Positions 10,527 to 15,270 of a stretch of 50,253 nucleotides of DNA are shown in pieces. Position 1 is the stretch's first letter, and each line of letters opens with the position of its first letter. The notes below the pieces were generated by a model, which searched no databases, was not told where the DNA came from, and saw only the letters and a program-made list of their open reading frames with translations. Source of the DNA: Thermoanaerobacteraceae bacterium (GTDB lineage Bacteria; Bacillota; JADQBR01); contig JACDOG010000015.1 in NCBI GenBank assembly GCA_017656305.1, positions 1 through 50,253 of the forward strand, read 5' to 3'. Made by a program: the position numbers and the translations under genes.

Positions 10527-11114
10527 TTAAGGCTTGTTTTGCTCAATATAGCCGGTGACCATGGCCTGCACTTTGGCCGGGTCGGAAGTTACTGCCAGGT
10601 AGATGTGGACGGGAATGGAGATGGCAAAAAAGACTGTCCCAAAGTAGATGATCATGCGCAGGGTGTTGACCAGCGCCAGGGGATAGAATATGTTTTGGGC
10701 CAGGTTGATAAAATACAGGACCAGGCCGTCACAAATCAACACCAGGGCAAGTAGAAACCAGGCAGTAAATAGCAACTTCTGTCCCGGATTGTACCGGCCA
10801 AAGTTGGGCTGCGTATTTTCCAAAAAGAATTCAAAGGCCAATAATCTTGGCATTTTTTTGATGTCACCGGGCATAAACAGTACTTCCGGGTACTTTCGCG
10901 TAATAGCATAGTAGTATGTATACAGGGTGAAGTTGGCAATAAAGAGAAAACTGAAGTAAAAATGCACCTTTCGCACCCACCAGAGTGGTAGGTCCAGAAA
11001 GGTTGGGTTGTTGATATAGAGCCCGGTAAGGACTAACGTGAAGACAATGGTTGCCGTAAGCCAGTGGAAGATGCGTACGGGCAAGGGCTGGACTAATTTT
11101 TTTTCAAGTGACAA
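10527..11114 (-). CDS. [NiFe] hydrogenase cytochrome b subunit
   Basis: 195 aa integral membrane di-heme cytochrome b of the HyaC/HupC family. It anchors the hydrogenase at the outer face of the membrane and passes electrons to the quinone pool. Four hydrophobic helices are visible (about 15-33, 50-70, 113-135, 155-175), with histidines in RIFHWLTA, KVHFYF and IPVHIYLA as heme ligand candidates. It overlaps the large-subunit gene by 11 bp and is the last gene of the operon. Confidence 0.88.
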   Translation of the reverse strand: MSLEKKLVQPLPVRIFHWLTATIVFTLVLTGLYINNPTFLDLPLWWVRKVHFYFSFLFIANFTLYTYYYAITRKYPEVLFMPGDIKKMPRLLAFEFFLENTQPNFGRYNPGQKLLFTAWFLLALVLICDGLVLYFINLAQNIFYPLALVNTLRMIIYFGTVFFAISIPVHIYLAVTSDPAKVQAMVTGYIEQNKP

Positions 11115-12513
11115 GAGAACCCCTCCGGTTTTTGTCGGTTTCGATTAAGTGTACGGCGCAGGCTAAGCAGGGATCAAACGACCGGATTACCCTACCTATT
11201 TCATGCGCGGATTTCACGTTTTCCACTGGTGTGCCTATCAAAGCTTCTTCTGCTGGTCCGCGCCTGTTTTTTTCATCCCTGGGCGACAGGTTCCAGGCGG
11301 TAGGTGTAATAATTTGATAATGCTTGATGCGCCCTTCATGAATTTCCATCCAGTGTCCCAGGGCACCGCGCATGGCATCGGTTAGGCCTACACCCAGGCC
11401 TTCTTTTTTTGTCTCATAGGGCTGTATTGAGGGCTGACCCGGCCGCAACTGCTCCAGCCACTGGCCCACTTTTTCGCACACGTACTTAAGCTCAAAGGCC
11501 CGGGCCAGCAGGCGGTCCATGGCGGAAATACCCCTGCGGTACTTGCCGTTAATCCACCAGCGGGCCAGGGGACCGCTTTCTACCGGCTGGTCCTGGTACC
11601 TGGGCGCCTTAGTCCAGGAATAGGCATCCGGTTTATTATTTTGCGGAATGGTGGTTTCCTTCAGTGGTTTACCGCCGGACACGGGTTCCCGGTACCAGGC
11701 GGCGGCAACACTTTCCCTGATGTACTTGGGATTTAATTTTTCCACCTTTTTATTGCTGTCCAGGTAGAGGCCGCCTTTGATTTGCAGTTCGCTGTTGTCG
11801 GGGTGGGGAAACATGCCGAAGCTCATGAGGTTGCCGTAGCCGCGGCCAATTTTAAGGTATTCGGGATAATAGTGAGCGATGATTTCAAAGTCTTCCTGAA
11901 CTTTGTTGGCGGCGAAATCATACAGGTCCTGTTGTATTGCCTGGGCCGCCTTGATCTTACCGGCATCGGGTGCCACGCTGACACCGGTGGGATAAATGGC
12001 CTGTTGGTGCGGTGCCTTGGCACCGAAAATGGCTATTAATTGATGGGCCCTGGCACTCAGCTCGGCTGCCTCCCAGTAATGTTTCATCAGCTGGTCGTTA
12101 ATTTGTTTGGGCAGTCGGTAGTCAATGGCCGGTTTGGGATTAAAGGGCGGTATATCCGGTCCCTCTACGTAATCGGGCATGACCAGCACGTACAGGTGGC
12201 GCAGGTGATTTTGGATGATATCTGCACCGAAGATGATGTTCTGCAGCAGCACCCCGTTGGGAGTGGCCGTGACTCCGTAAGCGTCCTGCAGGGCGTAGCA
12301 GGCCGCAATGGCATGGGCGGACGAGCAGATGCCGCAGATGCGCTGGGTGAACCAGATTGCGTCCCTGGGGTCGCGGTTGTACATCATTTGTTCAAAACCG
12401 CGGTACAGCATGCTGCTGCACCAGGCATCGGTGACCGCACCGTTTTTTATTTCTACTTCTATTGATAGAGGTTCATGTATCCGTGTGACGGGAAATATCC
12501 TTTTACGTACCAT
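11104..12513 (-). CDS. [NiFe] uptake hydrogenase large subunit
   Basis: 469 aa catalytic subunit of a group 1 membrane-bound hydrogenase. The Ni-Fe site is bound by RICGIC (about 59-64) and DPCLACAVH near the C-terminus. The 13 or so residues after that His form the tail that a HyaD-type protease removes after nickel insertion; no such protease or hyp gene is in the window. All four ligands are cysteines, with no selenocysteine. The start overlaps the end of the small-subunit gene by one base, so translation is coupled. Confidence 0.95.
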   Translation of the reverse strand: MVRKRIFPVTRIHEPLSIEVEIKNGAVTDAWCSSMLYRGFEQMMYNRDPRDAIWFTQRICGICSSAHAIAACYALQDAYGVTATPNGVLLQNIIFGADIIQNHLRHLYVLVMPDYVEGPDIPPFNPKPAIDYRLPKQINDQLMKHYWEAAELSARAHQLIAIFGAKAPHQQAIYPTGVSVAPDAGKIKAAQAIQQDLYDFAANKVQEDFEIIAHYYPEYLKIGRGYGNLMSFGMFPHPDNSELQIKGGLYLDSNKKVEKLNPKYIRESVAAAWYREPVSGGKPLKETTIPQNNKPDAYSWTKAPRYQDQPVESGPLARWWINGKYRRGISAMDRLLARAFELKYVCEKVGQWLEQLRPGQPSIQPYETKKEGLGVGLTDAMRGALGHWMEIHEGRIKHYQIITPTAWNLSPRDEKNRRGPAEEALIGTPVENVKSAHEIGRVIRSFDPCLACAVHLIETDKNRRGSLVT

Positions 12514-13748
12514 CAGTCAGTTTCCTCTCCGCTATCTTTTCCCAGTAGTTGCTTAGCTTTAGCAATCAGACCTTTTTTATTCCTGCTTTTTTGCCTGGCA
12601 TGGGTTAATTCTTGTTCAAGATTATCGAACTTTTCCAACAAGGCATCTACTTTATCTTCCAGTTCTTTTGCTGGGTAGGTCTTTTTGGTTACAATTGATG
12701 CTTTGGGTTTGGTGCCGGAAATCAAATTTTTACCAATACGGCCGGTGAAAATGTTGCCTGCCAGGTGGGTGCCCAGTCCCACTGCTGTTCCTATGCCCAG
12801 GGCTTTAGCCAGCCTGTCCGGTGCTGCCGTGGCACCATGAAGCCTGATGTCCGGCAGGTGCTTGAAGTAAGGCATCATACCGTCGGGAAATTCGGGACTG
12901 GTGCAGCCGATACAGGGACTGCTGGCTTCTACTGGCCAGTTGACATGGTCATTCCACTGGCGCACGGGACAGTCAGCGTATGTTACCGGTCCCTTGCAAC
13001 CCAGCAGGTACATGCAGCTTTCTTCACCCGGGTTCCGGGCAAAAATGCCATTTTCAAAGTACTGGCGGCGGGTGCAACGGTCATGCACGGTTCTACCGAA
13101 AAAGATTTTTGGCCGGTAAGCGCTGTCCAGTTCCGGTTCTCCGTAATTTATCAGGTGGTACAGGGTGCCTACGGTCCAGTCCGGATGTGCCGGGCAGCCC
13201 GGGACGTTTATCACTGGCCGGTGTATTACTTCGGCCACTCCCTTACATCCCGCAGGATTGGGATAGGCCGCGGCAGGCCCGCCCCAGGTGGCGCAGCTCC
13301 CTACGGGCATAACCCAGCGGGCGTGTTCCGCCAGGTACTTGAGCATGTCAATGCCGGTTTTTAAACTTCCGTTTTTCTGCAGTATGTAGTTGTATTTTCC
13401 CTGATCTGCCGTGACAACGGAACCTTCAATTACGAGAATATACCTGTTTTTATCCCTTTGTACCGTATCTTCCAGTGCCTTGACTGACTGCCCGTCCTGG
13501 GCTGCCATGTGCAGCCAGTGATAGCGCAGGTCTATGATCTCGGAAAACAGCTTTTTCTGGGAGGGGTCCATGGTGTTGGCCAGAGAAATGGAGTCTCCCG
13601 TGCAGGAACCCAGCTCAATCCATATTACCGGCAGCTTGTCGATGGCACCGCTTTTGGCAGCCAGAGCCAAATCCGGTAGCAGCACCGATACCAGGCTGAC
13701 TGAGGCTCCGGCGGCACAGAGCTTCAAAAATTCCCTGCGGGTCAGCAT
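12513..13748 (-). CDS. [NiFe] uptake hydrogenase small subunit, Tat-exported
   Basis: 411 aa. The N-terminal twin-arginine signal TRREFLKLC plus hydrophobic stretch sends the folded dimer across the membrane. Iron-sulfur ligands are visible in ELGSCTGDS, GSCATWGG, NVPGCPAHPDW, the CMYLLGCKG region, DCPVRQW and SPCIGCTSPEFPD. Oddly, the C-terminus (about 340-411) has no membrane anchor. It is a charged, probably coiled-coil tail rich in Lys, Glu and Gln. The membrane link must then come from cytochrome b or from the small membrane protein encoded upstream. Confidence 0.93.
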   Translation of the reverse strand: MLTRREFLKLCAAGASVSLVSVLLPDLALAAKSGAIDKLPVIWIELGSCTGDSISLANTMDPSQKKLFSEIIDLRYHWLHMAAQDGQSVKALEDTVQRDKNRYILVIEGSVVTADQGKYNYILQKNGSLKTGIDMLKYLAEHARWVMPVGSCATWGGPAAAYPNPAGCKGVAEVIHRPVINVPGCPAHPDWTVGTLYHLINYGEPELDSAYRPKIFFGRTVHDRCTRRQYFENGIFARNPGEESCMYLLGCKGPVTYADCPVRQWNDHVNWPVEASSPCIGCTSPEFPDGMMPYFKHLPDIRLHGATAAPDRLAKALGIGTAVGLGTHLAGNIFTGRIGKNLISGTKPKASIVTKKTYPAKELEDKVDALLEKFDNLEQELTHARQKSRNKKGLIAKAKQLLGKDSGEETD

Positions 13749-14245
13749 TATTCGTTCCCTCCACTTTTAAAAGGACGCCAGAGGCTGAGTGCAAAGGCCG
13801 TAAAGGCGATAAAGGTCCAGATGCCGCCGGTTACCGCGATAAACGCACCGGTTTGCTTGCTGCCCATGGTTTCTAGGAACACGCCAAACGGCAGGAGAAA
13901 GCCGCCACCAATGTAAAGCAGGCTGACAGCGCTCAATAACCTGCTCTTGAAGGAAGAATGGCCAGCCAGCATGGACATAAAGACGGCGATAACGCCGAAC
14001 AGTGTCAGATGGCTATGTACATCACTGTGTTGGTCAGCAGTTTCCTGGGTGACTTCCCACTGTTTCAACCAGCGCAGGGCTGCATCCTGCTGTCCCTGGT
14101 TGGTTTTTTCCAGTGCTGTTTCCATGGCTGTCAACCGTTGGACCCGTAAGTCGTTTAAAATAAAGCTGGTGTAATACAGTCCGTAAAACATGCCCAGAAT
14201 AATGAGAATAATCCCGCCAGTGAGGAGAATTTTGCTGGATTTAAT
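13748..14245 (-). CDS. Membrane protein of the hydrogenase operon, apparent ATT start
   Basis: 165 aa with four hydrophobic segments: about 5-25, 79-95, 103-125 and 131-153. From the first in-frame ATG (14191) the protein would lose its first membrane helix and have no ribosome site. A perfect AAGGAGG (14260-14254) lies 8 bases before an in-frame ATT at 14245. Between the upstream stop (14335) and 14191 there is no ATG, GTG or TTG in frame. ATT initiation, as in infC, is therefore the best reading. The gene ends at the small-subunit start and is likely an anchor or assembly partner. Family not recognised. Confidence 0.7.
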   Translation of the reverse strand: MKSSKILLTGGIILIILGMFYGLYYTSFILNDLRVQRLTAMETALEKTNQGQQDAALRWLKQWEVTQETADQHSDVHSHLTLFGVIAVFMSMLAGHSSFKSRLLSAVSLLYIGGGFLLPFGVFLETMGSKQTGAFIAVTGGIWTFIAFTAFALSLWRPFKSGGNE

Positions 14246-14369
14246 TGGTGCCGCCTCCTTTTCTGTATAGTATTTGTGATAGCGGCTGGAAAAATGCGTG
14301 GCACCAGGGTAACAAATAAAATATTGGGTAAACTAAGTTAAGAAATTCAAAAAGGGAGGCTGGTGTGGC

Positions 14370-14522
14370 TTGACTCAAACAATTGAATGTTCAGTAAAAC
14401 GTTGCAAGTACCAGAGCGATGACATGTGCACGCTGGACAGCATTGAAATAAGTCCCTGTCCCCATAATTACTCTGGCACCGTTGATGAAACGGATTGTGC
14501 AACCTTTCAACCGGAAGAATAA
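14370..14522 (+). CDS. DUF1540 mini-protein 1
   Basis: 50 aa. The Cys pattern (ECSVKRCKY, MCTLDSIEISPCP, ETDCATFQ-like ending) is that of DUF1540, a short cysteine-rich domain common in Clostridia, probably metal binding. It starts at TTG with GGGAGG 10 bases upstream. Its stop overlaps the ribosome site of the next DUF1540 gene. Confidence 0.75.
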   Translation: MTQTIECSVKRCKYQSDDMCTLDSIEISPCPHNYSGTVDETDCATFQPEE

Positions 14523-14535
14523 GGAGGTGGGATTT

Positions 14536-14691
14536 GTGGCAAGAATTCGCTGCTCGGTTACCAGCTGTTTTTACCAGGATAGAGACTGCTGTACCCTGGA
14601 CTCAATTAAAGTCCGGGATAGTGAAACCGGAGACCCGTTGGAAACTGATTGTGCAAGCTACAAGAGCAAAGATGCATTTGTAACTGATTAA
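14536..14691 (+). CDS. DUF1540 mini-protein 2
   Basis: 51 aa, a diverged tandem copy of the preceding gene (RCSVTSCFYQ, CCTLDSIKV, LETDCASYKS). GTG 14536 follows AAGGAGG (14521-14527) by 8 bases; that site shares bases with the upstream stop codon, so translation is coupled. A strong terminator follows. The frame is open further upstream but without a ribosome site. Confidence 0.75.
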   Translation: MARIRCSVTSCFYQDRDCCTLDSIKVRDSETGDPLETDCASYKSKDAFVTD

Positions 14692-14692
14692 T

Positions 14693-14741
14693 AAAAAAGT
14701 GCCTTTACCAGCAGCAGTACCTGCTGGACGGGCACTTTTTT
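14693..14741. terminator. Bidirectional terminator
   Basis: The outer stem AAAAGTGCC/GGCACTTTT encloses an inner stem CCAGCAG/CTGCTGG, with A- and T-runs on both sides. It ends the DUF1540 pair on plus and the gene ending at 14740 on minus. Confidence 0.85.
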
Positions 14742-15270
14742 ACGTACGGTAAATAACGCTTATGGTGACATTTCTTTCCATTCTGTTACGGGAATCCCAC
14801 GCCACCAGGTCTTTTATCAGGGGAGCCCGAATTAGCAGTTTCCATGCTTGATGGAGATTGTGCAGATATTCCCGCTTTAAAGTGCATTCTAGCAACGGGC
14901 AGTGATAGGGAAGTTCCAGGGTTTCCCTGATTAAATATAATTTGCCGGCATGGATGTGTGGAGCAGCGGGAAAGGTACGGCACTGGATGGGACGCAGGTG
15001 ACGCTGGCAGGCCCCGCTGCATTTGGCGAAAATAACCTGTTTTCCCCGCCAGCTGGGCGGGAAGTCGTATTCATACGCGCGGTGTCTTTCAAAGGTCAAC
15101 CAGGATACATTTTCGATCAACTGTTCTTCACCAGGTAAGAGATAAATGCCCAAATCTCCGGGCTGGTTGCAGCAGGCTTTAGCACAGATAGTGCCGCAGT
15201 CAAAGTCTACCGGGTTAACCTTATTGGTCAGCGCGTAAATGTATTTAAACTGTTCTTTTGTCAGCGTCAT
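14740..15270 (-). CDS. Cysteine-cluster protein (YkgJ/UPF0153-like)
   Basis: 176 aa. Cysteines lie in the pattern DCGTICAKACC near residue 25 and CSGACQRHLRPIQCRTFP near 85-102, like the zinc/iron-chelating YkgJ family (CxxCxxCC). A further Cys pair lies in YHCPLLEC. The role in the family is unclear. ATG 15270 follows AGGGTGA by 5 bases; the GTG at 15279 overlaps that site. Confidence 0.7.
   Translation of the reverse strand: MTLTKEQFKYIYALTNKVNPVDFDCGTICAKACCNQPGDLGIYLLPGEEQLIENVSWLTFERHRAYEYDFPPSWRGKQVIFAKCSGACQRHLRPIQCRTFPAAPHIHAGKLYLIRETLELPYHCPLLECTLKREYLHNLHQAWKLLIRAPLIKDLVAWDSRNRMERNVTISVIYRT

Follow-up and report, generated by a model that had tools for sequence, protein, structure and literature searches.

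The first gene of a NiFe hydrogenase cluster, located on the minus strand of the window (the whole stretch of 50,253 nucleotides that was analysed), raises the question of whether a protein can be started there from an ATT codon and, if so, what such a start would mean for the amount of protein made. The original prediction placed the start at ATT 14245, 8 bases after a perfect AAGGAGG. The features discussed are listed in Table 1.

Table 1 Features of the hydrogenase cluster and of the start region under study, with positions counted in the window.
Feature	Position	Strand	Remarks
Cytochrome b561-type subunit	10527..11114	-	Pfam Ni_hydr_CYTB; below the NCBIfam cut-off for hydrogenase cytochrome
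NiFe hydrogenase large subunit	11104..12513	-	Gene after the small subunit
NiFe hydrogenase small subunit	12513..13748	-	ATG overlaps the preceding stop (TAATG, 13748-13750); own GGAGG 9 nt upstream
Membrane protein, 165 aa, four hydrophobic peaks	13748..14245	-	First gene of the hydrogenase cluster
First in-frame canonical codon ATG	14189..14191	-	Inside helix 1; rejected as start
ATT start codon (strongly supported)	14243..14245	-	ATT + AGGAGG + 8 nt in G004; ATG at the aligned residue in G386, G417 and G107
Shine-Dalgarno AAGGAGG	14254..14260	-	AAAGGAGG, 8 pairs to the anti-Shine-Dalgarno, 8 nt before ATT
DUF1540 protein, divergent	14370..14522	+	TTG start
Second DUF1540 protein	14536..14691	+	GTG start, AAGGAGG + 8 nt

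On the minus strand, AAGGAGG (14260-14254) is followed by the 8-nt spacer CGGCACCA and then by ATT (14245-14243), the reading around the start being ACAGAAAAGGAGGCGGCACCA ATT AAA TCC AGC AAA ATT CTC, so the ribosome site lies exactly where it had been predicted. Its spacing of 8 falls within the mode (7-8) of the canonical starts in the genome sample. The reading frame, 165 codons long from the ATT, is bounded upstream by TAG 14335-14333 and ends with TAA 13750-13748. It lacks ATG, GTG and TTG in the 29 codons that lead up to ATT 14245 as well as in the next 17, which agrees with the prediction that none of them is found in frame between the upstream stop and ATG 14191. Since gene-prediction programs as a rule recognize no starts other than ATG, GTG and TTG, the gene would be listed in a shortened form, without its first membrane helix.

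The closest orthologue found comes from G004, a genome of another class of the same phylum; it is 36-39% identical and has the same hydrogenase neighbours. Its start region reads TGA CAGGAGGGAACGGCC ATT AAG ACT TAT, i.e. AGGAGG, 8 bases and ATT, with no canonical codon ahead of membrane helix 1. In G386 (AAAAGGAGGTATTCA ATG) and G417 (GGAGGTTTTTTCC ATG), in both of which the small subunit gene adjoins, an ATG stands at the residue aligned to ATT 14245, and the same is true of G107, while the N-terminus of the G160 protein is longer than that of the window protein. In G107 and G160 the gene does not share a contig with a listed small subunit. Four hydrogenase-linked copies were found (the genome under study, designated G000, and G004, G386 and G417), two of which have ATT.

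The gene thus shows the three signs by which an AUU start was judged, namely no in-frame ATG, GTG or TTG before the conserved coding sequence, a Shine-Dalgarno sequence (8 bases) at the normal spacing of 8, and a start position backed by the orthologues described above. Judging from these sequence features, ATT 14245 is very probably a real and selectively kept start of the 165-residue membrane protein heading the cluster, which would be made at a low level varying with IF3. In mechanistic terms, the initiator tRNA would read AUU weakly, the strong Shine-Dalgarno sequence would offset this in part, and IF3 would reject part of the initiation complexes formed at AUU. By analogy with other systems, the ATT most likely holds the four-helix membrane protein at a low level under IF3, and the AUU would most likely set its amount relative to that of the hydrogenase subunits, which have ribosome sites of their own. 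A limiting effect of the ATT on the first gene would fit the published AUU/AUA starts (PMC13009471, PMC5472188). A leader structure masking the ribosome site was also considered and dropped, as three constructs, two from the window and one from G004, did not fold better than shuffled sequences (z 0.11, -0.64 and -1.31).

It might be argued that the ATT is indeed the start but a neutral one, with the strong Shine-Dalgarno sequence compensating for it, nothing being regulated and the codon persisting by drift. The Shine-Dalgarno sequence of this gene, with its 8 pairs, is the longest of all the rows in an exact-match pass (766 genes, 38 rows). However, the age of the ATT speaks against neutrality. 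When 31 small subunits are placed in a tree, the genome under study pairs with G004 (92/94, not starred), each branch measuring 0.47. This left plenty of opportunity for the third base to change, and yet both lineages have ATT, with about 0.94 changes per site between their versions of the neighbouring protein. A wider group also takes in family f123 (G386, G417, G303) and six further members, its deeper order being not firm. The 918 canonical starts found in the genome survey described below are divided into 616 ATG, 168 GTG and 134 TTG, from which we infer that the presence of ATT in both lineages by drift is unlikely. Given the pairing of the two genomes in the tree, both ATTs may go back to a single inherited event, and the simplest reading is that the codon changed to ATT once in an ancestor and was then retained for long, although two separate changes may have occurred. 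Moreover, PMC13009471 describes two Staphylococcus aureus genes with extended Shine-Dalgarno sequences, cvfC1 (AUU) and ccpN (AUA), which in reporters were expressed in poor medium at about 10% of the AUG level despite these sequences. A neutral ATT is considered unlikely.

A rather improbable extension of the preferred reading, in which the ATT lowers the amount of the membrane protein, is that it restrains the entire hydrogenase operon through translational coupling at TAATG. Such control, which the original prediction had suggested as a limit on hydrogenase production, is possible given the overlap of stop and start at 13748-13750, but the small subunit has its own GGAGG, and in G004 the stop of the membrane protein gene and the start of the small subunit gene are separated by a 13-nt gap with AAGGTG inside. 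As for the operon itself, the gene order (small subunit, large subunit, cytochrome b) fits the predicted hydrogenase operon, whereas no consensus promoter was found in 14200-14800. The small and large subunits downstream in G004 are 60% identical to those of the window, and an acetyltransferase (57% identical) and a symporter (73% over the part fetched) are also found nearby, with different genes between. Upstream of the cluster in the window there are two tandem DUF1540 genes in divergent orientation. Among the open-licence papers listed, none was found that describes a hydrogenase gene starting with ATT.

Initiation at ATG 14191, with the upstream ATT being an ordinary codon or left untranslated, is very unlikely. 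This is the first canonical codon in frame, and an in-frame ATG is present at the same residue in G107 and G160 too, where it is internal, both genes having canonical codons further upstream. The sequence ahead of ATG 14191 includes no Shine-Dalgarno sequence, and a start there would cut helix 1: the best 19-residue hydropathy mean is 2.17 for the full protein, whereas none of the first eight windows of the shortened form exceeds 0.32, so the first hydrophobic peak is removed, as had been foreseen together with the missing ribosome site. The residue is encoded by ATA in G004, G386 and G417, i.e. in all three hydrogenase-linked orthologues, which therefore cannot begin there. In addition, L7, G10 and G11, which precede this residue, do not vary among the five aligned sequences, one of them from the window, and three of the five begin with ATG at the residue of the ATT. 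ATG 14191 was ruled out as the start on the basis of the hydrogenase-linked orthologues and the hydropathy. The comparison of orthologues proposed with the original prediction thus came out largely in favour of ATT 14245, with ATT in G004, ATG in two others and none of the three beginning at 14191, the ATGs of G107 and G160 being the exception qualified above. It is hardly credible that an ATG was turned into ATT by a mistake in sequencing or assembly: the genome is a draft of 62 contigs and two of the four hydrogenase-linked copies have ATG at this position, but ATT recurs at the same place and with the same Shine-Dalgarno spacing in the separate genome G004 of another class, which makes either an error or a chance ATT unlikely.

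The membrane protein itself has an HxH motif and an E that are invariant in the five-sequence alignment. Membership in the HlyIII family (PF03006) was not reached, the score being 19.7 bits (E 0.00073) with a gathering cut-off of 26.2; NCBIfam gave only a weak unrelated match, and the best hit of a profile search against PDB had an E value of 0.97. An AlphaFold model from the single sequence (pLDDT 66.5) matched no PDB fold at E ≤0.001. No relatives were found in plasmids or in viral contigs, and the only match in the genome-contig search was a tandem-duplicated distant relative on an acidobacterial contig (L002, 348-812). Matches were found in two of 61 related genomes, in two of 46 genomes of the class of G386 (G417 was found there) and in five of 398 genomes of a phylum sample, own genome included, with a profile search giving five of 397, one of which (G014) is weak; the two phylum samples appear to comprise largely the same genomes. 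A small-subunit match is present in 121 of the 398 genomes. Among the 30 small-subunit loci that were fetched from these matches with 1.5-kb flanks, some of which end early at contig ends, the gene is found upstream of the small subunit only in the window, G004 and G386.

The genome was also surveyed for similar starts. AAGGAGG followed by ATT after 6-9 nucleotides occurs at 28 sites in the whole genome versus 73 for the reversed control pattern, so the pattern is not enriched. ATT 14245 is the only one of these 28 sites with an open frame of over 100 codons and no canonical alternative, i.e. a start upstream in frame or 4-13 nt after the same Shine-Dalgarno sequence, the other 27 failing the length or the alternative test. 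A simple codon-usage gene finder, applied to the 1.217 Mb that could be read (45% of the genome, made up of stretches and the window), produced 1145 genes, of which 918 have canonical starts at Shine-Dalgarno spacing. The remaining 227 yielded 57 Shine-Dalgarno-spaced non-canonical codons located at least four codons before the first canonical codon. These belong to 35 codon types, including six GGT, five AAA and three ATT, the expectation for ATT being about two from its codon frequency of 0.035, which is no enrichment. Most of these 57 rows are noise, and with ATT close to expectation the count alone proves nothing, so that the case rests on orthologues.

Two more ATT candidates from the survey of 45% of the genome have some support from relatives. 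The first is a gene for a YceG-like small membrane protein, with a weak Pfam match below the cut-off (L147, contig C2, 126387, plus strand; relatives' loci L148, L149, L155, L153 and L152). Its start reads AAAGGGGGAGATAGA ATT AAT TCT, a near-identical Shine-Dalgarno sequence and ATT being found in G001, G002 and G004, while G008 and G015 have GGGTGA, two codons and ATT. The search covered 21 genomes, 11 of which gave no match, and the ten loci, own included, comprise six with ATT, two with ATG (G019, G013), one with TTG (G009) and one unreadable (G006). A later start may be used in G001, G002, G004 and G008, each of which has an ATG 8-11 codons beyond the ATT. The gene lies in an apparent flagellar cluster: its neighbours, named by eye, are a sigma-factor-like frame some 0.4 kb upstream and, on the downstream side, flagellar rod-like frames. 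The sequence AGAATTAATTCT over the YceG-like start is a perfect palindrome in four genomes.

The second candidate is a 2-thiouracil desulfurase (PF04463; L117, contig C1, 86410, plus strand; relatives' loci L118 and L145), for which the exact-match pass gave GGAGG, 8 bases and ATT 86410, and the later survey of 57 rows an ATT one codon further on. At the aligned codon, 29 other loci have a canonical codon in 14 cases, ATT in two and another codon in 13. The ATT follows AAGGGGG after 8 nt in G002 and AAGGAGG after 8 nt in G049, where an in-frame GTG is present 13 codons upstream. The desulfurase frame could stem from a one-base insertion or error because GGAGGGATGA contains an out-of-frame ATG. 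On contig C5 (about 14942, minus strand), a gene recognized by eye as an ABC transporter ATPase has a seeming ATA start 8 nt after an AGGGGGG-like Shine-Dalgarno sequence, with a GTG alternative six codons on. It is tentatively conceivable, though somewhat doubtful, that AUU in this lineage forms a working, conserved class of weak starts (infC, the hydrogenase-linked membrane protein, the YceG-like gene and the desulfurase) whose output would move jointly with IF3 availability. With a conserved AUU outside infC, its counterpart in a relative and further candidates, IF3 tuning of metabolic and motility genes becomes testable, and such genes can be searched for by a strong Shine-Dalgarno sequence, ATT, no alternative and an orthologue with ATG at the same residue.

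Several known systems can be compared with the present one. The E. coli pcnB gene has an AUU start that keeps its protein scarce, the gene and the organism being unrelated to those considered here. The infC gene starts with AUU, AUA or AUC and is autoregulated by its own product, IF3. It resembles the 13748-14245 gene in having a Shine-Dalgarno sequence, AUU and no canonical alternative, all of which are present in infC of the genome under study as well, but differs in its autoregulation, whereas the 13748-14245 gene encodes a membrane protein. The infC start consists of GGAGGTGA, two codons and ATT in five of the six genomes searched, own included, with no infC match in the sixth (G417, 89% complete). 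No canonical start lies between because the TGA in GGAGGTGA is an in-frame stop right before the two codons. The presence of ATT in all five genomes where infC was found suggests that ATT is usable as a start in this organism. For Xanthomonas, PMC5559785 gives peptide evidence of an ATT start of infC and cites a further ATT start in Deinococcus deserti.

Outside infC, the closest parallels are cvfC1 and ccpN of S. aureus, as described in PMC13009471, which likewise combine an extended Shine-Dalgarno sequence with a conserved non-canonical start, ccpN reaching up to 30% of the AUG level in rich medium; they are different genes, and the reduced expression was measured in S. aureus, whereas for the membrane protein it is inferred. 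The Streptomyces sigR gene, according to PMC5472188, has a GTC start repressed by IF3, which keeps SigR from exceeding its partner. By analogy, the ATT may also set the amount of one protein relative to a partner, with the differences that the sigR codon is GTC rather than ATT and that the partner of SigR is an anti-sigma factor. Read from its sequence, the 13748-14245 gene is a predicted new member of the already known non-canonical-start genes infC, cvfC1, ccpN and sigR.
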